Of a DNA stretch of 64,000 bases, positions 31,483 through 49,050 are shown in pieces. The notes beneath the pieces were generated by a model. That model ran no database searches. It had not been told where the DNA came from and saw only the letters and a program-made list of their open reading frames with translations. Every line of letters starts with the position of its first letter. The first letter of the stretch is position 1. The position numbers were made by a program, and so were the translations under genes. Source of the DNA: Alphaproteobacteria bacterium (GTDB lineage: Bacteria; Pseudomonadota; Alphaproteobacteria; Puniceispirillales; Marisalimonadaceae); the NCBI GenBank assembly GCA_004213885.1, contig SGYL01000005.1:1-64000 (forward strand), in the 5' to 3' direction.

Positions 31483-31489
31483 ATAGGTA

Positions 31490-31539: not shown

Positions 31540-31548
31540 CATTATCAT

Positions 31549-31595: not shown

Positions 31596-31623
31596 CACCT
31601 AACTTTAACAGAGGGAGGTGACT

Positions 31624-31740: not shown

Positions 31741-31753
31741 GCAAACTACTAAT

Positions 31754-31785
31754 GGGAGTAAGTTTAAAAACTTACTCCCTTAAAT
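31754..31785 (+). terminator. Terminator of the riboswitch-peptide unit
   Basis: GGGAGTAAGTTT (31754-31765) is perfectly complementary to AAACTTACTCCC (31768-31779). It stands between two convergent genes and may serve both, although the T tract is weak on both strands. Confidence 0.78.
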
Positions 31786-32468: not shown

Positions 32469-33002
32469 ATGTCACGCATAGGTACAAGATTAATTGATAG
32501 ACCTGAATTCAAAACAAAACCAAAACCTATAACTTTTCTAGCTACTGATAAAGTTTCAGAAGCTGTAACTGTAATGTCTGAAAAAAATTATGGTTCGGTA
32601 ATAATTGTAGATAAACAAGAAAAAGTTATTGGTGTAGTAACAGAAAGAGATATTGTCAAAAAGCTAGTTAATGGTGGATTATCACCAAAAAATACTAAAT
32701 TAGAGAAAATAATGACTAAAAATCCTAGAGTTGCTAATGAAAATGATAATGTAGTAGATTGGTTGAGAATAATGTCCAACGATAGATTTAGAAGATTGCC
32801 AGTTGTAGATGAAAAAAACAAAATCAAAGTTATTTTCACTCAGGGTGATTTTGTTTCTTACACATGGCCTGATTTAATTTACCAAGCTTCTCAAATGGCT
32901 AAATCAAGCTTTATGAAAGGTTTTTCAATTAACTCATTGTTTATTTTCATGATAGTATATGCCGTTGCTATATTTGCAACAGTTAGAGCTTTTATCAATT
33001 AA
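32469..33002 (+). CDS. CBS-domain pair protein with C-terminal membrane anchor
   Basis: 177 residues. Two CBS motifs (SEAVTVMSEKNYGSVIIVD then VIGVVTERDIV; VANENDNVVDWLRIMSNDRF then FTQGDF) form one Bateman module that would bind adenosyl nucleotides. A C-terminal hydrophobic segment (NSLFIFMIVYAVAIFATVRA) should anchor it in the inner membrane. AAAGGAG precedes the start. It is probably a regulator of a membrane target; the target is not evident. Confidence 0.78.
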   Translation: MSRIGTRLIDRPEFKTKPKPITFLATDKVSEAVTVMSEKNYGSVIIVDKQEKVIGVVTERDIVKKLVNGGLSPKNTKLEKIMTKNPRVANENDNVVDWLRIMSNDRFRRLPVVDEKNKIKVIFTQGDFVSYTWPDLIYQASQMAKSSFMKGFSINSLFIFMIVYAVAIFATVRAFIN

Positions 33003-33027
33003 CACACTTATTTGAAGGTTAATAAAA

Positions 33028-33366
33028 ATGTCAATTTATAATAAAATGGTTAAGGCAATTGATGATTGTAATTTAGATGATTATTTAAACTTACTTCATG
33101 ATGACTATATTTTTGTAAGACATCAATCAAATCAAGAAGTAACTAAATCTGCATGGGTGCCTGTTGTTACAGGAATGTTTAATGCGATGAAAGAAGGAAA
33201 ACTTAGTTTTGAAAATAACAGATGTATATATGAAAATGATGATATTTTAGTTATTCACAATATAGGTAATTTTCCTGATAATACCAAAGAAGCTATAATG
33301 GCAGTACATACCTTATCAAATGGTAAAATTATAAAAACTGAAAGTGGAGCAACCCGGATTGATTAA
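33028..33366 (+). CDS. SnoaL-like / NTF2-fold protein
   Basis: 112 residues. YNKMVKAIDDCNLDDYLNLLHDDYIFVRH is the typical cone-forming start of SnoaL-like domains, and the short beta strands after it fit the fold. Members are enzymes or ligand binders. It follows the CBS gene by 25 bases on the same strand, so it is probably cotranscribed. Confidence 0.68.
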   Translation: MSIYNKMVKAIDDCNLDDYLNLLHDDYIFVRHQSNQEVTKSAWVPVVTGMFNAMKEGKLSFENNRCIYENDDILVIHNIGNFPDNTKEAIMAVHTLSNGKIIKTESGATRID

Positions 33367-33396
33367 TTATGTTTTAAACAAGTATTAATTGAATGA

Positions 33397-34392
33397 CTAA
33401 ATTACTTTTTTAAAATTATTTTGAGAAAGTTTATAAAAAGAGTTTTTTAAATATATAGCTAATGATTTCATGGCAGAAACATTAGCTCTTTTCTCAGCAT
33501 CACTATTATAGTTTGTGTTTGTATTAATATCATAAAAATATGGTTTTGAGTTTTCATCACATACAAATTCAAAAGCTGCAACATTAATACCTTCATTTTT
33601 CATGAGTTGCTTCATTTTAGGAATGGTTTTTTGACCTATGTCACTATTTTCAAAATTCAAGTCAATTTCAAATGTGTTTCTCATTAATGAATCTGTTGGA
33701 CAAAAGTCTTGACCAACTTCGCAAGCATCTGCTGGACAAAGCTCAAATCCATCGGAAGTATCTACATTTACTGCATATTCAAATTCACCGCCAATAAATT
33801 CTACACGAGTTATTTTATTATCAATTGGTTTTATATATTGCTGAATAAGTGTAATTCCATCAATAGATTCACTAAATTTTTCTCCATTAACATATTCAAA
33901 AACTGCATCTTTAGATTTTAAAAGTTGTACGCCTAAACCTTTGCCAGCTCTATTATGTTTTGTAATAATGTCTTTATAAAAAAATTTATCATATGCATCA
34001 ATTAAATCTTCTTTTTTTGTGACAGCAATTGTTGATGGAACATTTAATCCTACAACACTAAGAGATGCATATTGAACCAATTTTGAAATTTCTAAATTTA
34101 ATGCACTTCTACCATTAATAACGCTGGAATTTTGTGACTCTAACCAAGATAATAGACCAATTGTACTCTCAGGTGCAAATCTATTCCCCCTAGTATGTGA
34201 CGAGGCACTCATTCTATTGTAAAAAATGCCTTGAGGTGCTTTAGCTGATATATCTAAAATAGAATGACTCATGTCCCAATCTTCAAATGGCACATTCATT
34301 TTTTTTAATTCTTCACAAAGAGGTTTTGTCCACTCTTGGTTTTCATGAATGATATAGATTGATGGCTTCGAATTAAATGATAAATTAAACAT
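33397..34392 (-). CDS. ATP-grasp (RimK-like) ligase
   Basis: 331 residues. The middle shows ATP-grasp features: KDIITKHNRAGKGLGVQL (phosphate-binding Lys and Gly-rich loop), TLIQQYI, and metal ligands at the end (FEFVCDE...YFYDINTNTNY). RimK relatives join amino acids to peptides, proteins or cofactors with ATP. No carrier peptide or partner is visible next to it. Substrate unknown. Confidence 0.75.
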   Translation of the reverse strand: MFNLSFNSKPSIYIIHENQEWTKPLCEELKKMNVPFEDWDMSHSILDISAKAPQGIFYNRMSASSHTRGNRFAPESTIGLLSWLESQNSSVINGRSALNLEISKLVQYASLSVVGLNVPSTIAVTKKEDLIDAYDKFFYKDIITKHNRAGKGLGVQLLKSKDAVFEYVNGEKFSESIDGITLIQQYIKPIDNKITRVEFIGGEFEYAVNVDTSDGFELCPADACEVGQDFCPTDSLMRNTFEIDLNFENSDIGQKTIPKMKQLMKNEGINVAAFEFVCDENSKPYFYDINTNTNYNSDAEKRANVSAMKSLAIYLKNSFYKLSQNNFKKVI

Positions 34393-34536
34393 ATACTGTA
34401 TTTTTTATTTATTATATTGAAGTTACTTGATTGATCTAGGTTTTTAGAAATTAAATAAATTTATGATTACCAAATAATCAGCATTTATATAATTACAACT
34501 TCAGAAATTAAATTAATTATCTTATATAAATCATCT

Positions 34537-35064
34537 CTACCTTATAAATTGGTCAATAAAATTTGACCCTAAACCAACTTCTATAAAATGCTTTCTAGCA
34601 ACTTCAATTCTATCAAATACATCTGTAGAGCCTATTGTGTTTCCACTTTCATCACAATAAAGTAAAGCTCCAGTATTATGAAATAATGTAATCATTTCAT
34701 CACAATCCTCATCAACTACCAAAGTATGAATTTCACCAGGTGGTTCAAATAAATAAGAACCTTCTTTTGCAACCCAATCATGTTCAAGATATCTCCAAGA
34801 GCCTTTTATAACATATCCATGAACCGGAGCTGGGTGCTTATGCCTAGATAAAAAACCTCCACCTATAACTTTAGTCAAATGAACCCAATAACCTTGACTG
34901 ATATTATAGCAAAGTGGTCTTGACCAACGCCCAGGTGATAATGGAACCCATAACCTATCATCATCTTTAGAAAAGCTGTCTTGGATAAATATATCAGAAA
35001 TTTTATTACTTGGATTTGTTCCTTTATAAGGTTGAGGAATTAAATTTTGAATTGTATTCGTCAT
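34537..35064 (-). CDS. Cupin dioxygenase-like protein (dihydroxyacetophenone dioxygenase family)
   Basis: 175 residues. Cupin motif 1 is RHKHPAPVHGYVIKGSWRYLEHDW, and motif 2 is FEPPGEIHTLVV; both metal-binding histidine sets are present. The arrangement resembles 2,4'-dihydroxyacetophenone and acetylacetone-cleaving dioxygenases. The substrate is not known. Confidence 0.75.
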   Translation of the reverse strand: MTNTIQNLIPQPYKGTNPSNKISDIFIQDSFSKDDDRLWVPLSPGRWSRPLCYNISQGYWVHLTKVIGGGFLSRHKHPAPVHGYVIKGSWRYLEHDWVAKEGSYLFEPPGEIHTLVVDEDCDEMITLFHNTGALLYCDESGNTIGSTDVFDRIEVARKHFIEVGLGSNFIDQFIR

Positions 35065-35195
35065 CTGAATTCTCCAATATAAAATTTACTTTAATATAAT
35101 TAAAAAATTTTTGAAGGTATTTTTTAGTTTTAAGTATTATAATCAAATACTAATTAATCTTTGTAAAATTGTTTATAACATTGTTATCTGAATAT

Positions 35196-35492
35196 CTACA
35201 AACTGATTTTCCTCCAGTTTATAGAAATCTTTATACCGATTTCCATCATTTGTTTGAACAAATCTTTATTTCTAGAATTAACCTTATTTGAGTGTTGTTC
35301 ACTTTCCCACAAATTTATAAAGAATAATGTTATATCATCTATATCAACAAATTGAGTTAAGAATAAATTCTCTTTAAAAAATTCATCCACCCTTTTTATC
35401 AAATTTTCACGAAAGGTTTCTTTTGATAATTTATTTGGAAATTTTAATGTATGAATTCTAGTAAATATCTTATCCTCCTGAATCACTTGCAT
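35196..35492 (-). CDS. Small alpha/beta-barrel-like protein with a doubtful start codon
   Basis: 98 residues from ATG 35492, but that ATG has no ribosome binding site. A strong GGAGG lies inside the frame, five bases before an ATA codon, and the protein after it (FTRIHTLKFPN) aligns with how related genes begin (MYARIAEFQ in the 35.5-kb pseudogene). The true ATG has probably mutated to ATA, so the gene may be weakly translated or dying. Size and predicted strand-helix order suggest an ABM-type barrel; no family is certain. Confidence 0.5.
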   Translation of the reverse strand: MQVIQEDKIFTRIHTLKFPNKLSKETFRENLIKRVDEFFKENLFLTQFVDIDDITLFFINLWESEQHSNKVNSRNKDLFKQMMEIGIKISINWRKISL

Positions 35493-35526
35493 GTATATGT
35501 GTTATCAATCCAAGAAAACATTTTAG

Positions 35527-35811
35527 TTATTTATCAAGTCTAAATACTCTTTCACCTTCAATAAGTTTTATTCTTGTACTACCTTTAAATTCATTTAATT
35601 CAATAACCATGAGTTTCATTATTTTATCTGCATCTTTTTTTGAATTGAATTTTGAACCAATAAAACCAGAATTTTCATTAATTCAAAATACTTCACAGCT
35701 CAATTGACCATTTGCAATATTTCTAGGTAACATTACATTCTGCAAAAAGCCAATCATCATATCACAATTAGTTTTTGAAGTTGATTGAAATTCAGCAATT
35801 CTTGCGTACAT
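35527..35811 (-). pseudogene. Small alpha/beta-barrel gene interrupted by an in-frame TGA
   Basis: From ATG 35811 (GCTTTAAG before it) the minus strand encodes MYARIAEFQSTSK and QLSCEVF, then TGA at 35683-35685, then INENSGFIGSKFNSKKDADK and ends at TAA 35527. The frame is intact for 95 codons apart from the TGA. A Trp-to-stop change (TGG to TGA) is the simplest reading. Selenocysteine readthrough is possible in principle but no Sec machinery is seen here. Confidence 0.68.
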
Positions 35812-35865
35812 CTTAAAGCCTATAATTTATTTTACCATAATTAGAATAATATAAAAATTAGATTA

Positions 35866-36008
35866 TACAAATTTAATACATTTAACCAATTAGTATTTTT
35901 AATGTTAAAATTTCAATGATAAGCCATAGTTGCATGGGTAAATGTATATAGTTGATATGAGATATATTGGGATGTTAGCGCGTTTACTAGTTTAATGAAG
36001 ATATGCCA
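35866..36008 (+). repeat. Variable-region intergenic element, copy A
   Basis: Begins TACAAATTTAATACATTTAA, as in copy D, and contains the conserved core ATGTATATAGTTG (35942-35954) and ACTAGTTTAATGAAG. It lacks the two palindromes of the longer copies. It lies directly upstream of the SHOCT lipoprotein gene in the same orientation. Confidence 0.62.
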
Positions 36009-36050
36009 AAAAATTATTGTAACTAGAAAAAGTTTTGATAATGTTGCTAA

Positions 36051-36512
36051 ATGAAAAATTTTTTTTATATTATTACCCTTCTAGTTTTATTTGGCTGTGC
36101 TGGAAGCGCAACTCATGATGTTGTTAGTGCATACCAGTCTAAAGATAGGAGTTTAACTTGTTCAGAAATTGATAAAGAAATTGTTCGAGCACAAGTTATA
36201 ATTGATGGGGTTAATGAGGATAAATCCGGAATATCAGGTGCAGATATTATGGATGGTCTACTTTATTTTCCTTTTAACATGATAGCGAAAAGTCAAAATT
36301 ATAAAAACTCTTTAAGTGCCGCTGACAAAAGAATTGAAAGATTGGAAAATCTTAAGGATGACAAGGATTGTAAGGACACATCACAAGAAATGGCCAAAAC
36401 AAAATCTTCACTATCTCAAGAACTAAAAGAACTGACAAAAATGTATAAAAGTGGCGATTTATCAAAAATAGAATTCGAAAAAGCTAAAAATAAACTTTTG
36501 TTAGGAAACTAA
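36051..36512 (+). CDS. SHOCT-domain lipoprotein
   Basis: 153 residues. The signal peptide ends in the lipobox LFGC, so the mature protein is lipid-anchored at Cys16. A coiled middle part follows, and the C-terminus ELKELTKMYKSGDLSKIEFEKAK is a SHOCT (short C-terminal) oligomerisation motif. Function unknown. It overlaps the convergent M48 gene by four bases. Confidence 0.75.
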   Translation: MKNFFYIITLLVLFGCAGSATHDVVSAYQSKDRSLTCSEIDKEIVRAQVIIDGVNEDKSGISGADIMDGLLYFPFNMIAKSQNYKNSLSAADKRIERLENLKDDKDCKDTSQEMAKTKSSLSQELKELTKMYKSGDLSKIEFEKAKNKLLLGN

Positions 36513-37339
36513 AGATATTCAATCTTCACTTTGGGTATTAGCCTATTTAAATTTTTAATTCTGTTTTCTGTAATAGGATGTGTTCTTAAAACTTGAGGTA
36601 AATTTCTCAAAAAACGAGCTCCTATATCGTGTTTAGATTTATATTTTTCCAGTTTTTGAGAATAATTTTTTAAATTCATCCAAAATGAAACTGAACTTTC
36701 AGGTTTGTAACCTGCCAATGTCATAAACCTTAATCCCAACTCATCAGCTTCTGTCTCTTGAAACCTGCTAAAAGGAAGAAAATAACCAATTTCACTTAAA
36801 GCCGAACCAGAACCTATTATACCACCTGTTGCAGATGAAACGAGCTCTAAAGCAACTGCATGACTCATTCTTTCTTTTGAGTGCCAAGCAACCACGTGAC
36901 CCATTTCATGCCCCATTATTGTTGCTATTTCATCTTCATTCTTAGTAAAGTCTAGAATTCTTGAAAAAAAAACTATTTTTGCCGTAGGCATTGCAAAAGC
37001 ATTAATAGTTCTTTTATCTTTAACAATGTTAATTTCGTAGTCATATTGATATTTTTCATACTCATCTAATCTGTTTTCTATTTCAAAATACTTTTTAATT
37101 CCAATTTCAATTCTTTTTCCTATCTCTCTAACTTTTTTGACTAGTTTTTTATTTTTAACTAAATCATTATCAGCAAGAAATTCATAATAGTACTCGTCAC
37201 TCATATGTTTAACAATTCTTTCAGGAACAATGCTTAGTTGAGACCTTTTGTTTATAGGATTATAAGAACAACTAGACAAACTCATAGCACAACCACAACC
37301 CAAAATCCTTGTAAATTTTCTTCTACTAATTTTTTTCAT
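36509..37339 (-). CDS. M48-family metalloprotease
   Basis: 276 residues. HEMGH gives the zinc site, with the third ligand in ETEADELG. The N-terminus SRRKFTRILGCGCAMSLSSC combines a twin-arginine signal with a possible lipobox Cys, so it should be exported and perhaps lipid-anchored. It is related to LoiP/BepA-type proteases that look after outer-membrane proteins. Confidence 0.85.
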   Translation of the reverse strand: MKKISRRKFTRILGCGCAMSLSSCSYNPINKRSQLSIVPERIVKHMSDEYYYEFLADNDLVKNKKLVKKVREIGKRIEIGIKKYFEIENRLDEYEKYQYDYEINIVKDKRTINAFAMPTAKIVFFSRILDFTKNEDEIATIMGHEMGHVVAWHSKERMSHAVALELVSSATGGIIGSGSALSEIGYFLPFSRFQETEADELGLRFMTLAGYKPESSVSFWMNLKNYSQKLEKYKSKHDIGARFLRNLPQVLRTHPITENRIKNLNRLIPKVKIEYL

Positions 37340-37487
37340 ACTAATAATTCAACTATATTCTATCTTTATCAATCCATTGAGGATATTCCTTTTTAGCATT
37401 TAGTTTATTTTCAACTTCCATTAAATTAATATTGCTTTTATCTGAGGCCGATAGATACCTCTTCAATATCCATATCCTTATTGAACC

Positions 37488-38249
37488 TTAATGTCTGCTT
37501 TTGTTAAAGTCGCTACTCACTTCACCACTTAAACAACGAGGGACTCTTGGATAATTATCTGTGATAAAATATACATATTTGCCTTTATACATGCCTCCAT
37601 TACATTCATCGATTTTATCATTATTACCTTGATAAAAAAAATCTTCGTTATAAGTGCCATCATACTTTCCAAGAGGACCAGATTTTCTAAATCCATCTTT
37701 TAGGACCCAAGCAGACATTTTTCCTTTTATATAGTGAATCTCAAATCCGTCACCAGCATAACCTATATGACTTTTTTTTAAATTATTTACAAAGCTAGTT
37801 GGTAGACCATGATAATGATACATTCCACCTCTTCCTACATGTGCGTTATTAAAATCAAGCCCTAACCTACCCTTAAGACCAAAAATATCCACACTCCAAT
37901 TTTTCTTCCCATTACGACTATGTCCCCTTGGAGCTTTTGGATCCCAAAAACCAGCTGTAGCTGGACGAAATAAAACTCCGTTTAAAGCTATTCCAATTAT
38001 ACCTTTAATTTTTGTACTAGCAGTTGATTTTTTGGGGTATCTTGGAACGCAAACATGTATTTTTTGTTGAGATATAGAGTTAGGATTTCCTTTATTAGGA
38101 AAAACACCCGTTTTGTGATCAGGCATTCCATTACTATGAAAACATCTCTTATCTTTTGTTAATGATATTTCAAATTTATTTAATTCGGCAGCAACTAACT
38201 TTATAGGTAAAAATAATATTAATAAAAACACATATATTTTATTTTTCAT
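37488..38249 (-). CDS. YHYH-domain secreted protein
   Basis: 253 residues with a signal peptide (IYVFLLILFLPIKLVAA). The name motif appears as GMYHYHGLP, with a preceding block of conserved Gly/Asn residues (GIALNGVLF, DFNNAHVGRGG). YHYH proteins are periplasmic or extracellular and of unproven activity; metal binding by the His residues is likely. Confidence 0.8.
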   Translation of the reverse strand: MKNKIYVFLLILFLPIKLVAAELNKFEISLTKDKRCFHSNGMPDHKTGVFPNKGNPNSISQQKIHVCVPRYPKKSTASTKIKGIIGIALNGVLFRPATAGFWDPKAPRGHSRNGKKNWSVDIFGLKGRLGLDFNNAHVGRGGMYHYHGLPTSFVNNLKKSHIGYAGDGFEIHYIKGKMSAWVLKDGFRKSGPLGKYDGTYNEDFFYQGNNDKIDECNGGMYKGKYVYFITDNYPRVPRCLSGEVSSDFNKSRH

Positions 38250-38364
38250 TTGAAATCCTCTAAAAATTTACAGTTCCGTTGAGATAATAAATATGTAAAT
38301 ATTAATGTAACTTAAAAAAATTTTAAATTAAAAAAAATGATTCAGAAGAAAACTTTTTTCTGTT

Positions 38365-38652
38365 TTACTTAGCTTTGTAATCTAATTCGTCATTAACTAT
38401 TCCAGTCTCGATATTTGCTTTGCAAGAAAATCTATCTTCATAATCTTTGAAAAATTCCTTTAGCACAGGAATATACTTTTGAAGGTTTGCTTGATTATCA
38501 AATGTAAAAATACCAAGCCCCTTATCAGGTGTTATATGGTATGCATCGACGGCAATTAATCCTTTTAAATTTGAAAGGTCAAAGTTTGATGCTACATATT
38601 GATGACCTACATGCATTAATTTAGGATTTGAGTATCTAAGATTTAAAAACAC
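38365..38652 (-). CDS. Small protein, possibly 5'-truncated barrel domain
   Basis: 95 residues if started at GTG 38652; an ATG is available at codon 13. Neither has a ribosome binding site. The middle LGIFTFDNQANLQKYIPVLKEFF resembles the second strand-helix unit of dimeric alpha/beta-barrel domains. The 5' end may have been lost. No family is certain. Confidence 0.42.
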   Translation of the reverse strand: MFLNLRYSNPKLMHVGHQYVASNFDLSNLKGLIAVDAYHITPDKGLGIFTFDNQANLQKYIPVLKEFFKDYEDRFSCKANIETGIVNDELDYKAK

Positions 38653-38799
38653 ACAAAACTTAATAATCTCTAAAAATTAATTAATCACAATGGTAAATAG
38701 TTATCAATAATAAAAATCATTTATACATATATAAAATTACAATATACTAATTTTGAAAACAAAATTTCACATCACATTGAATACTTTTTATAAAAATAT

Positions 38800-39205
38800 G
38801 ATACATTTTAATAGTCTACCATAAGGTCTGCTCCCTTAACAAACAAAATAAATATGTTTGCATATCAATAATTTACGATGATAGTTTAACAGGAAGTGGT
38901 GCGCTCTAGAGGAGTTCTATTCCTTGTGTATGCACCACAAATAATATCATTCTAGCTATAGCTTAGGATATGTATTCATATCGTGATGTCACACGATTTG
39001 TTTCACAGTTTGTTTTATATATAAAATTAACCGTTACTAGCATAGGGTAAGTGGTACATCCTAGGTGTTAATAATACCCCCTTTATTAATGCACTTATAT
39101 GTAACACTTTAAGTGTTATCACTCCCCACGTAAGTACCATAGAGTTATGCATAGATTTATATAGTTGGTGTGTGTGATTGATTGGGGTATGAGTGTGTTT
39201 GGGTC
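38800..39205 (+). repeat. Variable-region intergenic element, copy B (expanded)
   Basis: The start (GATACATTTTAATAGTCTACC) matches copy D with a few changes. It then has ACATC-CTA-GGTGT (39056-39068), the palindrome TAACACTT-T-AAGTGTTA (39102-39118), the core ATTTATATAGTTGGTG (39155-39170) and GATTGGGGTATGAGTGTGTT. It is longer than copy D because of an inserted hairpin segment. No gene in the same orientation follows, so the gene it served may be lost. Confidence 0.68.
38896..38938. repeat. Inverted-repeat hairpin inside copy B
   Basis: GTGGTGC (38896-38902) pairs with GCACCAC (38932-38938), with a second short pairing inside (GAGGAG/TTCC region). It is absent from copies C, D and E, so it looks inserted. 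Confidence 0.45.
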
Positions 39206-39222
39206 AGTAATGATATTTACTT

Positions 39223-40005
39223 TTACTTAAAAACAGCGGATACATTTCCAAATAACGATGATGTAACCTGTATTAATTTATTATCATTTATAGCAATTGG
39301 AAGTCCATAGGCTCCAGTCAAAATTAAATTACCTTTTTTTAAAATATTGCCTATTTTATCCTGTTCTTTAACTAACCATTCAACCTCTGACAACATATCA
39401 TAGGGCCACTTTTTATCTGACCATGTATCAATTATCTCTTTATCAAAAATAAGCTTTAAATCAGTTAATTTAGAATTGACATTTCCTTTTGTAGGCTTTC
39501 CTATTACTACACCTGCATGAATAGCATTATTAGTGAGTAGTTCAGCACCAAAAGGTGGATTACCATTAAAAACTAGATTATGAATTTCAATTACAGGATG
39601 AATGGTTTCTATTGAATCTAAGATATAATCTAAATTTACTGATTCAGGTTTTAAGTCACGGTTTAATATAATTCCAAACTCTGCTTCTATTGCGGGATTT
39701 GAATAGTTAATTCTTTCTAAAGTTATACCATCAGAGTATAATTCATTTTTCCAAAGTCTTCCCCAAGCTGGTTTAGTTAAACCCATTTTAAACTGCGTAT
39801 CTTTAGATATACATCCAATTTTATATCCTATAACTTCTTCACCTCTTTGCTTTCTTAAATTTGTTACAGCTTGCTGAATTCGAAAGGCATCTTCAATACT
39901 TATAGATATTTTGTCTTTAAATATTCCTGATGGGATTTTTGCGTCATAATCATCTAAAATTTTATGTGCATAAACATCTAATTGAAATTGACTTAATTCT
40001 ACCAT
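39223..40005 (-). CDS. 2-keto-4-pentenoate hydratase / fumarylacetoacetate hydrolase family
   Basis: 260 residues. The FAH-fold metal ligands are in AIEAEFGIILNRD and the Glu further on (VIEIHN). GYKIGC near residue 60 and the ending LTGAYGLPI fit hydratases of the MhpD type. They hydrate 2-hydroxypenta-2,4-dienoates in aromatic meta-cleavage. No other meta-cleavage genes are near, so the physiological substrate is open. Confidence 0.8.
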   Translation of the reverse strand: MVELSQFQLDVYAHKILDDYDAKIPSGIFKDKISISIEDAFRIQQAVTNLRKQRGEEVIGYKIGCISKDTQFKMGLTKPAWGRLWKNELYSDGITLERINYSNPAIEAEFGIILNRDLKPESVNLDYILDSIETIHPVIEIHNLVFNGNPPFGAELLTNNAIHAGVVIGKPTKGNVNSKLTDLKLIFDKEIIDTWSDKKWPYDMLSEVEWLVKEQDKIGNILKKGNLILTGAYGLPIAINDNKLIQVTSSLFGNVSAVFK

Positions 40006-40067
40006 TATTAACTTACAAATAATTATACAAAGTTAGCCTACATGATTTAAGTAACAATTAAAGGACT

Positions 40068-40964
40068 TTATTGTGATTTAATTTGAATATCCTTTTTGGC
40101 TACAATTAAAACACAAGTCAACCCGATTATAAATGCACCTAAATAAAACAAGGGTTGCATTTTTTCTTCAAAGTAAATTACTCCAACTAATATTCCTAAA
40201 GGAACGGATATATACCTTAAAGGAGCTAAAAGACTCACTGGAAGTAATTTATGACTATATGACAAGCATATTTGCTGTAAACTTGATAAAACACCTATTA
40301 AAATCAAAATAAAATAAGAATTTTCTATTATTTTGAAATCAACATCGATAATTACACAAATTAAATAAAATACTACTGCTCCAATAATATTATACCACAA
40401 AGCTGTTGTAGTAGGATGGTCTGTATTTCCCAATTTCCGAAGAGAAATAAGCATTATCGATGCACACAAGGGGCAAAGAATTCCATAAATAATTCCAAAA
40501 TTATTAAATTTTAATAACTCATAGCTTGGATTAATTATTAAAAAAACCCCAATAAATCCTATCAAAGCCATTATTATTTTAAAAAACCCAACTCTCTCAT
40601 TAATAAGAATTGGTGCTAACAATGTCACAAATAACGGAATTGTATTTAATAATGTAGTCATTAAACTTAAGTCAATATATTTAAGTGCAGCAAATAAAAA
40701 ACCAAATGAAAATAATCCAGCTGCAGTTCTGACAAATAACCCTGATTTAGATATAATTTTAAAAGTGTCTTTTTTTCTTTGATAGAAGGAAGTTAAAAAT
40801 AATAAAGGTATACAAAATAAATATCTAAAAAATAAAATCAAAAAAACAGATAGTTCAGCTGCTATAAGTTTTACCAAGGATGCGATAAGAATCGTTGAAG
40901 TAACCTCTACTAAAGAAAGTGAGATACCGAATGATTTTTTTGATTTTAAATTTACTAATTCCAT
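40068..40964 (-). CDS. EamA-family (DMT superfamily) transporter
   Basis: 298 residues with ten hydrophobic segments and two EamA repeats (FRYLFCIPLLFLTSF in the first; GIIYGILCPLCASIMLISLRK starting the second). Small-metabolite carrier, substrate unknown. It follows no obvious operon partner; the hydratase is 62 bases downstream on the same strand. Confidence 0.83.
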   Translation of the reverse strand: MELVNLKSKKSFGISLSLVEVTSTILIASLVKLIAAELSVFLILFFRYLFCIPLLFLTSFYQRKKDTFKIISKSGLFVRTAAGLFSFGFLFAALKYIDLSLMTTLLNTIPLFVTLLAPILINERVGFFKIIMALIGFIGVFLIINPSYELLKFNNFGIIYGILCPLCASIMLISLRKLGNTDHPTTTALWYNIIGAVVFYLICVIIDVDFKIIENSYFILILIGVLSSLQQICLSYSHKLLPVSLLAPLRYISVPLGILVGVIYFEEKMQPLFYLGAFIIGLTCVLIVAKKDIQIKSQ

Positions 40965-41139
40965 AAAAATAATAATTCACATACAAAGTCTGATTGTTAG
41001 ATTATACGTGTTATTTAAAATGTTCTTTTATTATTTAATACACACACTACTAAATAAACTATAACTCTGAATTATGATATCTTACTATAATATCAATAAG
41101 CATGAAATGTGCAAAAGTTTGTGTATCGCTAAAGTTAAA

Positions 41140-41300
41140 TGTTCTTAATGACGTTAAATGTAGACATCATAGGTGTTATTTATAACCTACTTAAAACATT
41201 ATTAAACTGCATTATGTCTAAAATATTAACACCTTTACATGAGCCATGCACATATGGATAGATGTATATAGTTGGTGAGAGTTATAAATTGGAATGTAAT
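41140..41300 (+). repeat. Variable-region intergenic element, copy C
   Basis: ACATC-ATA-GGTGT (41164-41176), CATGAGCCATG and the core ATGTATATAGTTGGTG (41262-41277) are shared with copy D. The second palindrome is degraded. It is upstream of, and in the same orientation as, the DUF3303 gene. Confidence 0.62.
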
Positions 41301-41427
41301 TTATATGCAAATAATATGTCAATAAATGCAAAACAGAATTCTAATAACTACACTTTAAAAATAGTGTAGATAATTTAAGTTATAAATATCTTTTACTAAT
41401 TTCCTCCTTGATTAAAAAGATAAGAAA

Positions 41428-41455
41428 CGGGCTCTTAATGAGCCCGAATTTATTT
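41428..41455 (+). terminator. Orphan intrinsic terminator
   Basis: CGGGCTC (41428-41434) pairs with GAGCCCG (41440-41446) around TTAAT, the same loop as the aapJ terminator, followed by AATTTATTTGTTT. No ORF precedes it on the plus strand within 450 bases, so it may end a small RNA that includes repeat copy C. Confidence 0.75.
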
Positions 41456-41562
41456 GTTTGAATGATTAAATTTTAATCAAATGTACCTATTTAAATTTTA
41501 AACTGTGTAGAATTAATTATAAGTCATGTAAAATATAATATTAAATAAAGAAAGGATAAAAA

Positions 41563-41868
41563 ATGATTTTTATGTGTACTTATCAAGTAGATAGAGACAA
41601 GCAGGCAGATACTCAAGCATTTTTTGCGAATATGACTGATGAGCAAATTAAAGGAGAATATCCTGACGGAGTCAAACAAATTGGTCGTTGGCATGATACA
41701 CCGAACGGCAGGGGTTGGGTAGTGGTAGAAACCGATAATGTAGAAGCCTTGACAACTTGGATGATGGGCTGGTCAGGACAAGCGACATTTCCAATTATAA
41801 CACCTGTTATGGACGATACTAATGGTCGAAAAATGATGAAAGCTGTGATTGCAAGCCAGCAGAGCTGA
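41563..41868 (+). CDS. DUF3303-family small protein
   Basis: 101 residues. MCTYQVDRDKQADTQAFFANM, KQIGRWHDTPNGRGWVVVET and a final PVMDD match DUF3303, a dimeric ferredoxin-like barrel family. A hand count of its first 180 bases gives 72 G+C (40%), clearly above neighbouring genes, a sign of recent arrival. AAAGGA precedes the start. It lies downstream of repeat copy C. Confidence 0.8.
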   Translation: MIFMCTYQVDRDKQADTQAFFANMTDEQIKGEYPDGVKQIGRWHDTPNGRGWVVVETDNVEALTTWMMGWSGQATFPIITPVMDDTNGRKMMKAVIASQQS

Positions 41869-42152
41869 AAAAAATAAAATTTAGGACTTACCCATTGTCA
41901 ACTATTAAGCTCATCAATTATATTAACTTAGTAAAATATAAGTTTTAATTTGCTTATTTTGAAATACATTGTCATTGAATGTTTTATCAGCCTGTATGTA
42001 GCTGAATAAGTCAAAGATTGTAAATACAGCTAAATATGTATAGTTAAGCTGTAAAGAAGATGGTGTAGGATTATAATGAATATTACCCATGAAAATTTAA
42101 GTCTAAAAATTACACGGGATATTTTTATTAAATTAATAGCTAAAATAAGTAT

Positions 42153-42923
42153 TCAAAATAAATTTTTAAATCTGTTTTCTTTATCTAAATTAATATCATC
42201 CAATCCAATGGAATCAAATGGATTTTCAACATTATGTTGAATATTACTTAACATAACCAACACAGAAGAGTATAAGATAGCCACAATATATCCTAAATAT
42301 GAAATAACTTCATTAAGACTTGCGAAATATGGCGCAAAAAGAATAGGAAAAATATTTAAAAAAATCTGGCTATAGGCTTCTAATCCTCTAGGTGTTCTAT
42401 AGTCAGAAATGGAGCTAATTTTTTCAAAAGAAACAATTGTATTATTCAACCAATTATTGATACGTGAAATTTCACCGTCTGATACATCTCTATTTCTTAA
42501 TTTTTCATTTTCATTAGAAATTTTTAAAAAGCTATTATAGATTTTTTTTTTATGTTTATTATTTAAACTTTCTGTCACTAAATCTTTTTTAATATATGAA
42601 AAAAGTTCTTTTATAATTTTGTTAATATCTGAGTTTTCTTTAAAAGGTTTTTTCTTTGACCAATTTAAATGTGCAAAATAAATTGAAGTAAGATTAGCAT
42701 TAATTATTCCATAGTGTTCAAGTGCTTTGTCTCTTCTTTGAAATGCAGAATTAATACTGAAAACAATAGGAAAAACAACTGCTATACCAATAAGAGAAGT
42801 TGGCATATTTCCAACGAGATTAATGCTACCGCACACATAAGTAGTAAAAACAGATAAAATTGTAATAATAAAAACTTTGATGTTAATTATATATAAAAAA
42901 TTTTTCAAAGTATAAAAGTTCAA
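42153..42923 (-). CDS. Bestrophin-like channel protein, paralogue 1
   Basis: 256 residues. Two N-terminal membrane segments, MPTSLIGIAVVFPIVFSIN and AFQRRDKALEHYG, a helical middle domain, then YRTPRGLEAYSQIFLNIFPI and the ending NVENPFDSIGLDDINL. The NPFD...DDI tail and RTP motif fit bestrophins (RFP-TM chloride channel family), which form pentameric anion channels. It is a close paralogue of 44199-44972 and is transcribed with the channel gene between them. The anion specificity is inferred. Confidence 0.75.
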   Translation of the reverse strand: MNFYTLKNFLYIINIKVFIITILSVFTTYVCGSINLVGNMPTSLIGIAVVFPIVFSINSAFQRRDKALEHYGIINANLTSIYFAHLNWSKKKPFKENSDINKIIKELFSYIKKDLVTESLNNKHKKKIYNSFLKISNENEKLRNRDVSDGEISRINNWLNNTIVSFEKISSISDYRTPRGLEAYSQIFLNIFPILFAPYFASLNEVISYLGYIVAILYSSVLVMLSNIQHNVENPFDSIGLDDINLDKENRFKNLF

Positions 42924-43073
42924 AACAATTAACTCCTTTAAAATACAATAGGAAATCTATATTAAGAAAATATTAAATTCCTGAAAAAAATTTAAAACAA
43001 AACAAATTAAATAAATATCTAATATATGTCATTGAAAACTATATCAATCTATAAATTTTTATCTCCAACATGC

Positions 43074-44168
43074 TCAATGTGGAACTACATCTTTGAAAAT
43101 ATATAAATACAAAACTGCAAATGCTCCAAAAGCGAATAAGGGGCTTGCAGTCCTAGCTATTTTTTCTAGACCTCTATTTGTATTTCCTCCTTCTTCGGCG
43201 ATTTTATAATGACTAATTATGCCAATCATAAGATTAAATGTTACAACAAAAGTAGCCCAAATAAACAACCCGTCTGTGAAATTTAGATAATGCGTACTTG
43301 GCAGTGACCCTCCTAGAGAAAATTTTAGTGCAGGTACCGTTAGAAATAATGTAAGTTGTCCACCAATTCTCCAATTAAAAATATCATAATTTCCTGATGG
43401 GTAAAAGTGGTTTAATAGTAATGACAAAAATACTATTGCAAAAATTGGAAAAAGTATTTTTTGTACTGAGTCAATGAAACCGTGTTCTACATTAACATGA
43501 GATATTAAATATGAAAATTTCTCTTTACCTCCGTGATTTAAACTTGTCCTTCCTTGCTCCTCAAGAAGCGTTTTTGTAACTTTCCAATTTCCCTTTACAA
43601 TTTTGTGATGAGCATCATGGTGTCCAATTTCAATGCTACTTGGATAAAACACCATTTTTGATTTATTACCTGAAAACGAAGCGATATCTAAAAATAGATC
43701 TAGATTTCCAAAAGGATATCTTGGCATTTCAGCATCAATACTTAAATCTGCTTCAAACCTCTCAAATAATTCAAACTTTCCTTTGTAAACATCTAATGTT
43801 TTATAATGGGTTGTTCTTGGATTTTCAGCATTAGATACAAAAAATTCAGGATACCAAATTTTTTCTAAATATTTATTAAGTTTTGGTCCATGGATAATTT
43901 CATCCCCGAAATTTGCAAGAAAATCAGAAGTTTTTTTATCTTCCCATATCATTAAAATTTCAACAGATACTTTATAGTGACCCTCACTTATATCTATACC
44001 ATAAATTTCATCATACAAAATTTTGGTCTCAACAAGATGTTCAGTTTTTATTTCAGATTTTTCTAATTTAGTTTGAGATTTAGCATGAGAAGCATCTTTA
44101 GAAAATGATGTGTTTATTCCGGAGAATAGTAAGGTTATAAGTATTATGAAAAAAAACTTAAAATTCAT
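43074..44168 (-). CDS. Pentameric ligand-gated ion channel homologue (Cys-loop superfamily, prokaryotic type)
   Basis: 364 residues with a signal peptide. The extracellular beta-domain has WYPEFFVSNAENP and the segment MPRYPFGNLDLFLDIASF, which corresponds to the FPFD region of the superfamily but without Cys-loop cysteines, as in GLIC and ELIC. Four membrane helices follow. The M2-like helix lies in GGQLTLFLTVPALKFSLGG, and LPSTHYLNFTDGLFIWAT is the M2-M3 loop into M3. A His-rich stretch (GHHDAHH) near residue 190 could bind metal. It is flanked by two bestrophin-like genes, 30 and 150 bases away, on the same strand. Confidence 0.82.
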   Translation of the reverse strand: MNFKFFFIILITLLFSGINTSFSKDASHAKSQTKLEKSEIKTEHLVETKILYDEIYGIDISEGHYKVSVEILMIWEDKKTSDFLANFGDEIIHGPKLNKYLEKIWYPEFFVSNAENPRTTHYKTLDVYKGKFELFERFEADLSIDAEMPRYPFGNLDLFLDIASFSGNKSKMVFYPSSIEIGHHDAHHKIVKGNWKVTKTLLEEQGRTSLNHGGKEKFSYLISHVNVEHGFIDSVQKILFPIFAIVFLSLLLNHFYPSGNYDIFNWRIGGQLTLFLTVPALKFSLGGSLPSTHYLNFTDGLFIWATFVVTFNLMIGIISHYKIAEEGGNTNRGLEKIARTASPLFAFGAFAVLYLYIFKDVVPH

Positions 44169-44198
44169 TTTTTAAACTCCAATATTTCTAAAATTGTT

Positions 44199-44972
44199 TT
44201 AAATAACACTTTTGAACCTGTTATCACTATCTAAGTCTATGTCATCTAATCCTTTAAAATCAAATGGATTCTCAACATTATCTTGAATATTATTTAAAAT
44301 AACTAAAACTGTAGAAAACAAAAACGCCACTAAATAACCTAAAAAACTTATTTCTTGATTTAAATTTGCAAAATATGGAGCGAAAATAATTGGGAAAATA
44401 TTTAAAAATATTTTACTATAGGCTCTCATACCTCGCGGTGTTCTATATTCTGAAATAGCACTTAAATTTTCATATGAAGAAATTACATCCTTGAGATAAA
44501 AATTTATATATCCGATTTCTGTTGGGGTTATGCCTACATACCTAAGTTCTTCATTCTTATTTGCAAAAAAAGAGAAACATTCATATATCTCTTTTTTTAT
44601 TTTTTTATCTTTGCTTTCATTTACTAAGTCTTTTTTGATTAGTGCAAGTAATTTCAAAATATAACTCTTTAATTCTTCTGATATTTTTTTTTTATTTAAT
44701 TTATTATATTTACACCAATGAATATGATTGAAAAAAATTGACACAAGGTTAGCATTTATTACACCGTATAATTCAAGAGCTCTATCTCTTCTTTGAAAGG
44801 CAGTATTGATACTAAAAACAATGGGAAATACTACTGCAATTCCAATAAGAGATGTCGGCATATCACCAGTTAGACCAAAGTGACCACATAAAAATGTCGT
44901 TAACAAAGAGATTATTGCAATCAAAAAAACCTTTGTATTACAAACATATAAAAAATCATCAAAAGTTCTCAT
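44199..44972 (-). CDS. Bestrophin-like channel protein, paralogue 2
   Basis: 257 residues, same architecture as 42153-42923: MPTSLIGIAVVFPIVFSINT, FQRRDRALELYGVINAN, YRTPRGMRAYSKIFLNIFPI and NVENPFDFKGLDDIDL. It is the first gene of the three-gene channel unit. The two copies clearly come from a duplication, and the differences between them are conservative, so both are probably functional. Confidence 0.75.
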   Translation of the reverse strand: MRTFDDFLYVCNTKVFLIAIISLLTTFLCGHFGLTGDMPTSLIGIAVVFPIVFSINTAFQRRDRALELYGVINANLVSIFFNHIHWCKYNKLNKKKISEELKSYILKLLALIKKDLVNESKDKKIKKEIYECFSFFANKNEELRYVGITPTEIGYINFYLKDVISSYENLSAISEYRTPRGMRAYSKIFLNIFPIIFAPYFANLNQEISFLGYLVAFLFSTVLVILNNIQDNVENPFDFKGLDDIDLDSDNRFKSVI

Positions 44973-45468
44973 AGAATTTAATTAAAATAATAAACTAATA
45001 TGAATCCTATTTGAGATTTATAAAATTTCCTATTAAAATTTAAAAAAAGTAAATATTTATACAAATTTAATACATTTAAATGGTATACCATATTGTCTAC
45101 TTTAAAAATAACTATTCTTAGTATAGGTAACTGTAGACACCCTAGGTGTCATTATTATCCTTTTTATTAAGACATTTATACTGCCTAACATTTTAAATGT
45201 TACCACCCCACGCATGAGCCATGGGGGTATGGGTAGATGTATATAGTTGGTGTGTGTGACAGATTGGGGTGTGAGTGTGTTAACTAGTTTTATGAAGCAT
45301 ACATAAGTGTGTTAGGGGTGTTATTAGATTCTTAGTTTTTTGGTGGTAGTTAGGTAAACTCAGGAAGTGTGAAAAACAAAGTGATAAAATTTTGTACCTT
45401 TTTACTTAACATAGATAGCATTGATTGATACTTTCTTATTATAAATCTTTATAGACTAGGAGTTTCTA
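44973..45468. other. Non-coding gap with repeat copy D
   Basis: About 496 bases. It holds the best-preserved copy of the variable-region element; no ORF is convincing. The end carries AGGAG before the TTG start of the next gene. Confidence 0.6.
45058..45300 (+). repeat. Variable-region intergenic element, copy D (reference copy)
   Basis: In order: TACAAATTTAATACATTTAA, the perfect inverted repeat GACACC-CTA-GGTGTC (45136-45150), TAACATTT-T-AAATGTTA (45186-45202), CATGAGCCATGGGGG, the core ATGTATATAGTTGGTG (45237-45252) and GATTGGGGTGTGAGTG. It lies upstream of the 45469 gene in the same orientation. Confidence 0.75.
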
Positions 45469-45804
45469 TTGGATATCAAAGCAATTTTAATGACCTATAA
45501 TACCTTTACTTTTAAGACAGAAGCGCAAATGCTTCTTTTTAAAAGAATTTGGGAAGATAATGGTACAGCACTATTTGATAAAATTAAAAAAAAAGGATGT
45601 ACAAGATTTTGTCTTAATCAAATCTGGAATGTAAAGGGAACATTTAAGATGTCTATTCTTTTTGAGTATGAAAGTCCAACTTCATTTAAACAATGTCAAA
45701 ATGAATTAGAAAATTTTACCAAAAATCTAATGAAAGAACTTCAAGCCGCAGACCCTGTTATAGAGGCAAGTAGAAACATTGTCCTTCAGGACTTGAGAGT
45801 TTAG
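45469..45804 (+). CDS. Small protein, sole intact member of a three-copy local family
   Basis: 111 residues starting at TTG, chosen because AGGAG stands about seven bases upstream; an ATG at codon 8 has no such site. Core blocks are NQIWNVKGTFKMSILFEYES and the C-terminal ASRNIVLQDLRV. The strand-helix pattern suggests a ferredoxin-like barrel. Broken relatives are at 31068-31395 and 48495-48914. It is downstream of repeat copy D. Confidence 0.68.
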   Translation: MDIKAILMTYNTFTFKTEAQMLLFKRIWEDNGTALFDKIKKKGCTRFCLNQIWNVKGTFKMSILFEYESPTSFKQCQNELENFTKNLMKELQAADPVIEASRNIVLQDLRV

Positions 45805-45932
45805 CTCCTTAATAATACAGTATCCTAAACGCAATAAAACCTTTTTTCATACACCATTAATTCTATTTACACTTACACATCTATAAGACTCATTAAAATA
45901 GTTAATAATTTTTTTTAATAGATACTGAAATC

Positions 45933-46622
45933 TTAAAATTTTTCTAGCCAAGGTCTTATTTCTAATTCCCAAGACCATACACTTCTTTTTTGATTATAAA
46001 ATTCTAGATATCTTTTTGCAATCTCATCCGGACATAATTTATCATCATCTTTTTCATATGGTCTATTCTCAGACACTATGCTTCCATCTATTATAAAGTG
46101 ACCTATGTGAATATTTTGTGGATGTAATTCACGTGCTAATGATTGTGCTAAACCTCTTAAAGCAAACTTACCCATTGCGAATACTGATGAATTCGGAAAG
46201 CCCTTTGTGCTGGCAGATGCTCCTGTAAAAAAAATGCTTCCAGAACCTTTTTTCTTCATTCTCTTAACTGATTGTTGTGCAACTAAAAAAGCACCAAATA
46301 ATGTTATATTTAATGCATTTCTTGTGTTTTCTATATCTAATTCTTCAATAGGTCCTCTTACTCTTGAAGATGGATTATAAATCACTAAGTCTGGTTCCTC
46401 CTTTATATCATCTAATTTGCTAAATAAATTTTCAACATCAATTGAAGATGACACATCACACTTAAAAACATTTGCCTTTAATTCTTTCTTAACATTTTCA
46501 AGTTTATTAATATTCCTTGCCACTAAAGAAATAGACATTCCATTTTTATGAAATAATCTTGCAAGAGATAAACTTAATCCACTACCTACACCTATTATCA
46601 AAGCCTTTTTGTAAAGTGACAT
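45933..46622 (-). CDS. SDR-family protein lacking the catalytic tyrosine
   Basis: 229 residues. The Rossmann motif is GVGSGLSLSL (11-20). The position of the catalytic Tyr is Phe: F148 in VFAMGKFAL, with the Lys K152 kept. The NNAG motif is replaced by NPSS. The fold is intact but the chemistry may differ, or it may bind rather than oxidise. The substrate is unknown. Confidence 0.75.
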   Translation of the reverse strand: MSLYKKALIIGVGSGLSLSLARLFHKNGMSISLVARNINKLENVKKELKANVFKCDVSSSIDVENLFSKLDDIKEEPDLVIYNPSSRVRGPIEELDIENTRNALNITLFGAFLVAQQSVKRMKKKGSGSIFFTGASASTKGFPNSSVFAMGKFALRGLAQSLARELHPQNIHIGHFIIDGSIVSENRPYEKDDDKLCPDEIAKRYLEFYNQKRSVWSWELEIRPWLEKF

Positions 46623-46657
46623 ATTATATTCCTATTGAGTATAAAAATTATTAAATA

Positions 46658-46945
46658 TTAAGTCTTTGTAAATGAATCTGAACTCATTATCGTTGCAATT
46701 GCAGTTTCTAATTTGGCTCCAGAAGCGGTTCTAATTTTAGTCAATTCTTCATCACCAGCAAAATTTTGTAAAGATTCTGGGCTTTCAAAATCCATAATAA
46801 CTGTCAATTTATTATCATTATCTTTTTCAGTACCGGCAAATACTAACTTGCCTCCATGTTCATTTAATTTATATTCATTATCAATAAACATTTCTTTCCA
46901 TGGAGTAAAACCTCTCTCCAAATCAATTTCCATTTTAACTATCAT
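46658..46945 (-). CDS. DUF3764-like small barrel protein
   Basis: 95 residues. VKMEIDLERGFTPWKEMFIDNE, the KLVFAGTEKDNDNKLTVIMDF strand pair and SLQNFAGDEELTKIRTASG fit the DUF3764/ABM-like barrel pattern. GGGG precedes the ATG. It is upstream of the SDR gene by 35 bases on the same strand. Confidence 0.65.
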   Translation of the reverse strand: MIVKMEIDLERGFTPWKEMFIDNEYKLNEHGGKLVFAGTEKDNDNKLTVIMDFESPESLQNFAGDEELTKIRTASGAKLETAIATIMSSDSFTKT

Positions 46946-47139
46946 TAATTACCCCTTTGTTGTAAAATCTCTTTATTTATAAAGTTTAAACAATTAACCA
47001 AATTTAAACAAAACACTAGGTTTTTTTGTCCTAATCATTTAAAATTTGCTTTGCATAAATTTGGAGTTGATTTTGTAATGTCACCAAATTTTCATTTATA
47101 TTCAATTAAAATACCTCTTCTCTGCTAAAATTATAATTA

Positions 47140-47300
47140 CTAATACCAAAAATTTTTACTTATGCAGGATTGTTCATCAGGCAAATTTATTAATTCATTA
47201 TTTTTTTTACTTAAAATATATGGCTTTAAATTTTTAGTCACTTCATCAAGATGCCAAGCAAAATCTAAATTTTTATTAATACTATAGAAATTGAACAATA
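47140..47300 (-). pseudogene. Fragment of a paralogue of the 12.6-kb secreted protein
   Basis: The minus strand reads NKNLDFAWHLDEVTKNLKPY and ILSKKNNELINLPDEQSCIS, ending FWY at TAG 47140-47142. It aligns with FAWNLDKVTSTLSPIILS near the end of the gene at 12568-12981. Only the C-terminal third remains and no start is present. The stop of the next gene on this strand adjoins its left part. Confidence 0.58.
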
Positions 47301-47693
47301 TTATTCTGAACTATGATTGAAACCACAATGATGCCTGTTGAAACTAGCTCCAAAAGGAGTTAGTGTGTCAATTAAGTCTTGTTTAGAATTGCCATAAACT
47401 AACCATTTTTTAATATCAACATGTTGCAAAACTTCTTCGGCTATAGGGCTTGACATATGGTTATTTAAACGTTGCATAGCACCATCACTGTCAATAAATG
47501 ACTCTACTAATGTTGCTTCTTTATTATCATCAGACAAATACCATTCATAACTTATAGTTTTTACTTCCTTAAAATCAAACACGTATTTTGCGGCACGGTC
47601 ATTTGCCCATTTTCTAAATTCGTTAGCATCAGACTTGACACTACATTGAATAATAAATATTATTTTTTGTGATTTTGTATTGAGTTCGCCCAT
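47301..47693 (-). CDS. Small ABM-type barrel protein
   Basis: 130 residues from ATG 47693 with AGGA upstream. A longer frame reaching 47867 runs into non-coding repeat sequence and is rejected. KIIFIIQCSVKSDANEFRKW, TISYEWYLSDDNKEATLVES and the helix AMQRLNNHMSSP resemble antibiotic-biosynthesis monooxygenase-like dimeric barrels. It is downstream of the inverted repeat copy E. Confidence 0.7.
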   Translation of the reverse strand: MGELNTKSQKIIFIIQCSVKSDANEFRKWANDRAAKYVFDFKEVKTISYEWYLSDDNKEATLVESFIDSDGAMQRLNNHMSSPIAEEVLQHVDIKKWLVYGNSKQDLIDTLTPFGASFNRHHCGFNHSSE

Positions 47694-48208
47694 TATTTTA
47701 TCCTGTTTTAATTGTAGATTAATTATAAAAGTACATACATAAGTAATCAACGTATTTAGCTTGAATTTATTTAATTTATAAAAAATATAATACAACTTAA
47801 TAAAAAACTCATATGTCGCACACCCTAAATATATATATCTAGCTATACCCATTTCTGACATACACAACCACTATAACCACATTTTATGTACCAGTGACTG
47901 TACTAACACTGACACTACTGTATAATTCTCTATGACTCATTAAAATGGTTAACACGCTCACACCCTAATCTGTCACACACACCAACTATATACATCTACC
48001 CATACCCCCATGGCTCATGCGGGGATAGTGTTAACACTTAAAGTGTTAGGAAGAATAATTTTTAGAAGGTTACTATCACTGATGTAGCTTACAGTTATTT
48101 ACATTAAGGACAGTCATTTTTGTTAATTAATGATAAACACTTTACATAGAGTTTTAATTTTTAATATATTTAAAAGGTAATTTTAATTTATTTACAGAAG
48201 GATTTATT
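47694..48208. other. Non-coding gap with repeat copy E
   Basis: About 515 bases between two divergent small-barrel genes. It contains the element in minus orientation plus a more degenerate second half-copy, and no ORF I would accept. Confidence 0.6.
47820..48110 (-). repeat. Variable-region intergenic element, copy E (inverted)
   Basis: On the minus strand: TAACACTT-T-AAGTGTTA (48048-48032), CATGAGCCATGGGGG, the core ATGTATATAGTTG (47995-47983), GTGTGTGAC and GATTAGGGTGTGAG. A degraded second core (GGGTATAGCTAGATATATA) follows at about 47830-47860. It is upstream of the 47301 gene in the same orientation. Confidence 0.72.
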
Positions 48209-48508
48209 GTGACTAGTAAAGCTGTTTATATGATTGGTGACGTGGATATAAAAAATATAGAAGAATACAAAAAATATATGGAAAAAGTAAAACCTATGAT
48301 TGAAAGTTATGGTGGTGAATATTTAATTCGTGGTGGAGAAATAGATGCTTTGGAAACAAATTTGTGGAAACCTACTAGAATGGTATTAGTAAAGTTTCCT
48401 AGCAAGAAATTAGCAATGGAATGGTATAATTGCGACGAATATAGACCATATAAAAACATAAGATTAGAAAACGCTACTTCAAACATTCTAATGGTTGAGG
48501 GGCTATAA
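48209..48508 (+). CDS. DUF1330-family small protein
   Basis: 99 residues from GTG 48209, supported by AGAAGGA about six to seven bases upstream. KAVYMIGDVDIKNIEEYKKY, IESYGGEYLIRGGE and FPSKKLAMEWYNCDEYRPYK are standard DUF1330 blocks. These are dimeric ferredoxin-like barrels of unproven function. Confidence 0.85.
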   Translation: MTSKAVYMIGDVDIKNIEEYKKYMEKVKPMIESYGGEYLIRGGEIDALETNLWKPTRMVLVKFPSKKLAMEWYNCDEYRPYKNIRLENATSNILMVEGL

Positions 48509-48914
48509 TAGCTATAAAAGAACCTATAATTTTGATTTTAAATATTTGAAATTAGCATGTGGGATGATTACGAATAAAAAAAATACCACTTTTCTAAATT
48601 CACTTTACATGGATTTTTTAACAGAAAATGAATTAGAATTATTTTTAAAATCCCTTGATGAAATTTGGACTACTGAACTTTATGCAAAATTAAAGTAAAA
48701 TAGATTAATTCGTCATGTTATTTCAAAAGTATGGAATAAAGGTCAACATAGGATTACTCAAGTTTTTTAATACGAAAGTCAAGATTCTTTTAAAAAATGT
48801 GAAAGTATTTTGAAAGTTGCTTTTGCACCTGAAAATTGTCCAACCTTAGCAAAATTTGTTTTTAAAATATTTAATAATAGAGGAATAGTGGTTTCTGAGT
48901 TTAAAAATGATTGA
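48495..48914 (+). pseudogene. Paralogue of the 45.5-kb gene with two nonsense codons
   Basis: One frame reads LYMDFLTENELELFLKSLD and EIWTTELYAKLK, then TAA (48696), NRLIRHVISKVWNKGQHRI and TQVF, then TAA (48768), YESQDSFKKCESILKVAF and FNNRGIVVSEFKND, then TGA. The blocks VWNKG, YES..SFK.C and NRGIVV match the intact gene at 45469. The homology begins around 48600; the 5' start is unclear and overlaps the DUF1330 gene end. Confidence 0.72.
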
Positions 48915-49050
48915 AGTATATAAGAAGTTCAGATGTTAAAAAAATAGTCAGAATAAAAATTCAATTTCATAAAGAACTTATTTAACTTGTCATATAATTG
49001 TAATGATTACATGATTCTATTAATTTCCTTATAAATGGAGGATTAATAAA

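Follow-up and report, generated by a model that had tools for sequence, protein, structure and literature searches.

Organization of the locus

The window, that is the whole 64,000-nucleotide stretch analysed here, carries three genes on the minus strand that bring together members of two channel families. B1 (44199–44972) encodes a short bestrophin-like channel protein of 257 aa, assigned by Bestrophin_2, fold search and profile–profile comparison, and is followed by pLGIC (43074–44168), encoding a GLIC-like pentameric ligand-gated channel subunit of 364 aa recognized by phmmer against GLIC and by NCBIfam LGIC_1. The third gene, B2 (42153–42923), encodes a second bestrophin-like paralogue of 256 aa, as judged by its identity to B1 and by Bestrophin_2. 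The coordinates of the open reading frames confirmed the layout described in a first-pass annotation of this DNA, with all three on one strand and gaps of 30 bases between B1 and pLGIC and 150 bases between pLGIC and B2. The B2 start codon is TTG, preceded by AAGGAG, and the N-terminus of the pLGIC protein resembles a signal peptide. Purifying selection acts on each of the three genes (dN/dS ∼0.08–0.28). A scan, which gives no firm guide to co-transcription, found no terminator-like site between the three genes on their own strand, and promoter-like sites at the locus were rarer than in shuffled sequences.

Exactly these three genes lie in a block (41952–45077) for which 11 of 12 genus relatives yielded no close match. 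The surrounding part of the window (29600–49050) is an accessory region, loosely packed, with genes on mixed strands and many open reading frames of ∼100 aa, and its flanks are dense. The small-ORF families in it include DUF3303, DUF6974 and DUF1330, and comparable small ORFs adjoin pLGIC genes at two other loci (L005 and L006). Copies of a dispersed, unclassified intergenic repeat of ∼100–180 nt occur in both orientations at 35873–36000, 39022–39199, 41130–41292, 45101–45306 and 47926–48058, one of them close to the upstream side of B1, and several genus relatives carry copies too. An integron-like cassette array was rejected, as the intergenic repeats, when aligned and folded, revealed by eye no attC-type core sites. 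Searches for a phage, plasmid or viral-contig origin of the block returned no matches and those against phage-protein families no convincing one, and such origins were likewise discarded. A gene of the YHYH family is found near the three genes in both genera that carry the block (window 37488–38249; L004 8065–8934). It lies directly downstream of B2 in the second genus, at ∼4 kb in the window, and with this distance and an identity of only 42% between the two proteins it was dropped as a fourth member.

The pLGIC protein is a divergent Pro-loop channel subunit

GLIC (Glr4197, the proton-gated pLGIC of Gloeobacter) was matched by phmmer with E 3.5e-11 over residues 46–353, which take in the four helices as well as the ligand-binding domain. 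A profile match gave E 1e-10, the NCBIfam models LGIC_1 and LIC gave 3.8e-8 and 2e-7, respectively, and the Pfam ligand-binding model gave 0.0017; the AF2 model (pLDDT 41) was too poor for use. The protein contains no cysteine and hence no Cys-loop pair. On its sequence it is a divergent pLGIC, or ‘Pro-loop’, member that stands outside the strict Cys-loop receptors, so that the earlier description as a Cys-loop-type pentameric channel holds for the family, in both domains, and fails in its wording. With GLIC it shares the extracellular domain, the four transmembrane helices and the lack of Cys-loop cysteines, as well as the proline of the β6–β7 loop (P152), which is absolutely conserved in the superfamily (PMC4795631), the β9 Trp (W195), the M1 Pro (P241) and the M2–M3 Pro (P290). 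The basic residue at 0′ (R267) and the Leu at 9′ (L276) of the superfamily are kept too.

One departure from GLIC concerns the salt bridge that couples ligand binding to the pore. The Asp of the F/YPxD motif and the pre-M1 Arg, which together form this bridge, are present in 93% and 94% of the superfamily, respectively (PMC4795631); as both are given as near-universal and not as absolute, their loss does not cost the protein its Pro-loop membership. In the window, the Pro-loop reads YPFG (residues 151–154; 43707–43718, minus strand), with Gly in place of the Asp, and alignment with GLIC places H229 (43482–43484, minus strand) at the pre-M1 Arg position, so that the D122–R192 pair of GLIC is replaced by G154 and H229. 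Both replacements are found in all SAR116 copies whose sequence covers the two positions; a contig-end fragment in a further genome (G080) has the His, its Gly site lying off the contig. Most other aligned alphaproteobacterial pLGICs keep the Asp and a basic residue. A distant pLGIC from another genome (G445; L081 6941–7633) carries the same Gly and His, which suggests a correlated, perhaps recurrent change at the two positions. Judged from these residues, loss of the bridge could mean that gating is altered or lost.

A further difference from GLIC is the His-rich stretch GHHDAHH (residues 182–188; 43605–43625, minus strand), which does not vary among the four SAR116 copies and is absent from the other aligned alphaproteobacterial pLGICs. 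It aligns with the GLIC stretch ahead of the β9 Trp, which we take to be loop F, and is a plausible metal or proton site.

The M2 pore helix extends from R267 (0′) to P290 (23′) (43299–43370, minus strand), with T6′ and L9′. The sequence N-W-R leads into it, and neither −1′ nor −2′ is acidic; the pre-M2 Glu of GLIC is thus missing, and the M1–M2 loop is longer. We rejected a reading of ion selectivity from these residues, since pre-M2 positions do not predict it in prokaryotic pLGICs (PMC4795631).

B1 and B2 as divergent short bestrophin homologues

B1 and B2 are 59% identical. The Bestrophin_2 model matched B1 with E 4.6e-6 (26.8 bits) and B2 with E 9.4e-5 (22.5 bits), the Pfam cut-off being 27. 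We assembled a set of short bestrophins (∼250–280 aa, 12 aligned) including solo genes from another alphaproteobacterium (G446) and from six genomes that belong to this phylum but to other classes. Bestrophin_2 matched all 12 (E≤0.1) and was the sole family matched by more than one member. The 12-member profile was collinear over 228 columns with that of YneE from E. coli and four other canonical bestrophins (hhalign E 1.6e-5); an unrelated membrane protein, used as a control against an earlier, smaller profile of six rows (A5), gave E 0.41. The AF2 model of B1 was weak (pLDDT 47, whole-chain TM ∼0.35). When this low-confidence model was submitted to Foldseek, all 50 among the matches listed were KpBest, with probabilities up to 1.00 and a best E of 3e-3. 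VIA-align gave Z 11 over ∼120 residues, a supportive value only, as helical bundles alone can reach this range. The PF01062 profile gave no match on the own genome, nor did its controls, which makes this result uninformative. The sequence profiles and the fold search together support B1 and B2 as divergent short bestrophins. The suggestion of two closely related bestrophin-like paralogues is borne out in this way, and the proposed check of whether they might fall outside the bestrophins placed them with that family in both the profile–profile comparison and Foldseek.

The two proteins resemble KpBest and YneE (Bestrophin_2, PF25539) in the order of the helices, a neck segment F-x-x-N-x-A-(F/Y)-x-R, a C-terminal E-x-P-F and, on the low-confidence model, the fold match. 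In B1, the C-terminal motif E-N-P-F-D...D-D (44241–44273, minus strand) is the equivalent of the bestrophin E-D-P-F-G...N-D; the Ca2+ clasp is missing from KpBest itself (PMC8496536). B1 and B2 differ from KpBest and YneE in being short (∼257 aa) and under the Pfam cut-off, in lacking the CERI..TPxPFAY motif, where they have a five-residue insertion, and in the neck, which is IFF instead of IIF. The hydrophobic neck triad on TM2 of B1 consists of I45, F49 and F53 (spacing I-xxx-F-xxx-F; 44814–44840, minus strand), the eukaryotic type, as read from alignments and the hhalign register to YneE, and alignment gives I47, F51 and F55 for B2 (42759–42785, minus strand). The middle Phe (F49 of B1) is invariant in 12 of 12 short bestrophin relatives. 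KpBest is a Na+ channel with an I-I-F neck, and the substitution I66F, which yields the eukaryotic I-F-F, moves it towards Cl− (PMC8496536). From the IFF neck, a preference for anions is the better guess for both B1 and B2. The anion role put forward in the first-pass annotation is thus favoured for the bestrophins; for the pLGIC it is permitted and not predicted.

Linkage and distribution of the two families

A search for the linkage in related genomes, as had been advised, found the same arrangement in a second SAR116 genus (SCGC AAA536-G10, G007; locus L004), where the order B1–pLGIC–B2 and the strand are identical to those in the window. The flanks of the block differ between the two genera, and the common part consists of the three genes. 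Within the 58-genome family, pLGIC is present in three genomes and bestrophin in the same three; the chance of such agreement for the other two genomes is 1 in 1596 when the genome of the window is excluded, a figure that ignores relatedness and serves as a guide only. In the genus-mate MED585 (G046, 5% contamination), pLGIC and bestrophin are on different contigs. Its bestrophin-like gene (L026 7511–9252) adjoins, in divergent orientation, a gene for an Ion_trans voltage-gated channel (E 1.5e-41).

The two families are also found apart. No bestrophin was detected in G080, which has the contig-end pLGIC fragment and is estimated to be 79% complete, nor in AG-404-G18, for which completeness is not given, and both absences are soft. 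The pLGIC of AG-404-G18 (L005 5923–6996) is otherwise ∼78–80% identical and contains an in-frame TAA and TGA, reflecting either a recent pseudogene or an assembly error. Solo short bestrophins, without a neighbouring pLGIC, are found in G446 and in six Proteobacteria that are not members of the class; in G729 (L091 389–1872) and G548 (L092 5664–7195), two related genomes likewise from outside it, the short bestrophin gene follows a gene for an asparaginase N-domain. Among 385 alphaproteobacterial genomes, pLGIC occurs in 13 and Bestrophin_2 in 26, both being present only in that of the window, and there was no bestrophin near 13 other alphaproteobacterial pLGIC loci. We therefore rejected a class-wide association, and the pairing is a SAR116 matter.

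Horizontal transfer of the block

Comparison of sampled stretches from the genome of the window (G000) and from G007 gave 61 reciprocal best pairs, with a median identity of 60.9% and a median pS of 0.648. The three lowest pS values of all 61 pairs belong to the three genes of the block, B2 (0.256), pLGIC (0.425) and B1 (0.51), and the two highest identities are those of pLGIC and B2. The pLGIC protein is 90% identical to that of G007, from the other genus, and only 72% identical to that of its genus-mate G046, with a pS of 0.71, against genus medians of 84% identity and pS 0.544. The low pS values and the closer relationship of pLGIC to the other genus demonstrate, at the level of sequence comparison, that the three genes moved horizontally between SAR116 genera as one block. 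The genes on both flanks of 41952–45077 are found in pieces in genus relatives and, in two of them (G054 and G055), are joined to other neighbours. In a tree, the two B2 copies cluster (support 98/96), which places the B1/B2 duplication before the split of the two block copies.

As the second linked copy arrived by transfer, the linkage cannot be counted as independently conserved; it is one arrangement seen twice, not the product of repeated independent assembly. The expectation that the genes are kept together accordingly held in so far as the arrangement recurs in another genus; it is sporadic, spread by transfer and not broadly conserved.

Discussion

Comparative sequence analysis establishes the families of the three genes, their order in two genera, the movement of the block as a unit and the purifying selection. 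From the co-transfer, the short gaps and the fact that both types occur in G046 even without linkage, we infer a joint function, putatively in anion conductance, and we regard it as about evenly balanced whether the three genes form a mobile SAR116 channel cassette acting in one response. The pLGIC would form a pentamer in the inner membrane and open its channel when the periplasmic domain senses protons, a metal or a small ligand; B1 and B2 would form homo- or hetero-pentameric bestrophin channels, for which the IFF neck favours anions. Both conductances might then serve one response, for example one in which a change in the periplasmic signal leads to a release or uptake of anions that adjusts membrane potential, volume or pH. 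A more specific version, in which a metal- or proton-sensing, anion-permeable pLGIC rewired from Asp/Arg to Gly/His works with a heteromeric bestrophin as a dedicated two-family module, appears unlikely.

The joint-role reading is weakened by the pLGICs without bestrophin in G080 and AG-404-G18, by the solo bestrophins and by the separation of the families elsewhere in the class. These same observations, with the sporadic distribution and the location among numerous small ORFs and copies of a dispersed repeat in an accessory region, favour the strongest rival, namely passive co-transfer of accidental neighbours with separate functions on a mobile block. We consider it a serious candidate, even if not a probable one: the co-occurrence persists in G046 although the genes there are unlinked and very divergent, the block common to the two genera is reduced to just three genes with differing flanks, and the genes are tightly spaced and all under purifying selection.

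Two further explanations accept a functional connection and differ in what the pLGIC does. It might be a cation channel, for instance proton-gated like GLIC, its nearest solved relative, with the bestrophins as the counter-ion path for an electroneutral salt flux. The missing acidic residue at −1′/−2′ speaks against this, even though pre-M2 sequence is no guide to selectivity in prokaryotes (PMC4795631), and we hold it to be rather unlikely. Alternatively, the pLGIC might serve as the receptor of a single mixed sensor–effector complex and gate the bestrophins, instead of or besides conducting. Such a complex would suit a pLGIC deprived of both residues by which nearly all family members link the ligand domain to the pore, and flanked by two genes of a family that is pentameric as well. 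It is nonetheless improbable, since no domain fusion occurs, M1–M4 and the pore residues R0′, T6′ and L9′ are kept, suggesting a working pore, and the pLGIC of G445 has the same Gly/His pair with no bestrophin found nearby.

We found no published description of a pLGIC–bestrophin pairing in the full text of open-licence papers. Bacterial pLGIC neighbourhoods described by Tasneem et al. (PMC549065) include PBP-II, Cache and a Na+/H+ symporter. They resemble the present locus in that a pLGIC gene stands beside that of a putative partner, and differ in that the partners are a binding protein, a Cache domain and a transporter, with no channel of another family; in GLIC, too, flanking bestrophin genes have no counterpart. 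According to an inventory of 2016, the biological role was known for no pLGIC of unicellular organisms (PMC4795631). The pLGIC gene of this marine SAR116 bacterium encodes a relative of the ion channels of nerve receptors, and its travelling as a unit with genes for two channels from a different pentameric family offers a concrete candidate partner and thus a rare clue to the role of a bacterial pLGIC. The salt bridge, in turn, has naturally lost both its ends, a state that the SAR116 copies retain and a distant pLGIC shares, and this offers a natural experiment on the coupling of binding to gating.
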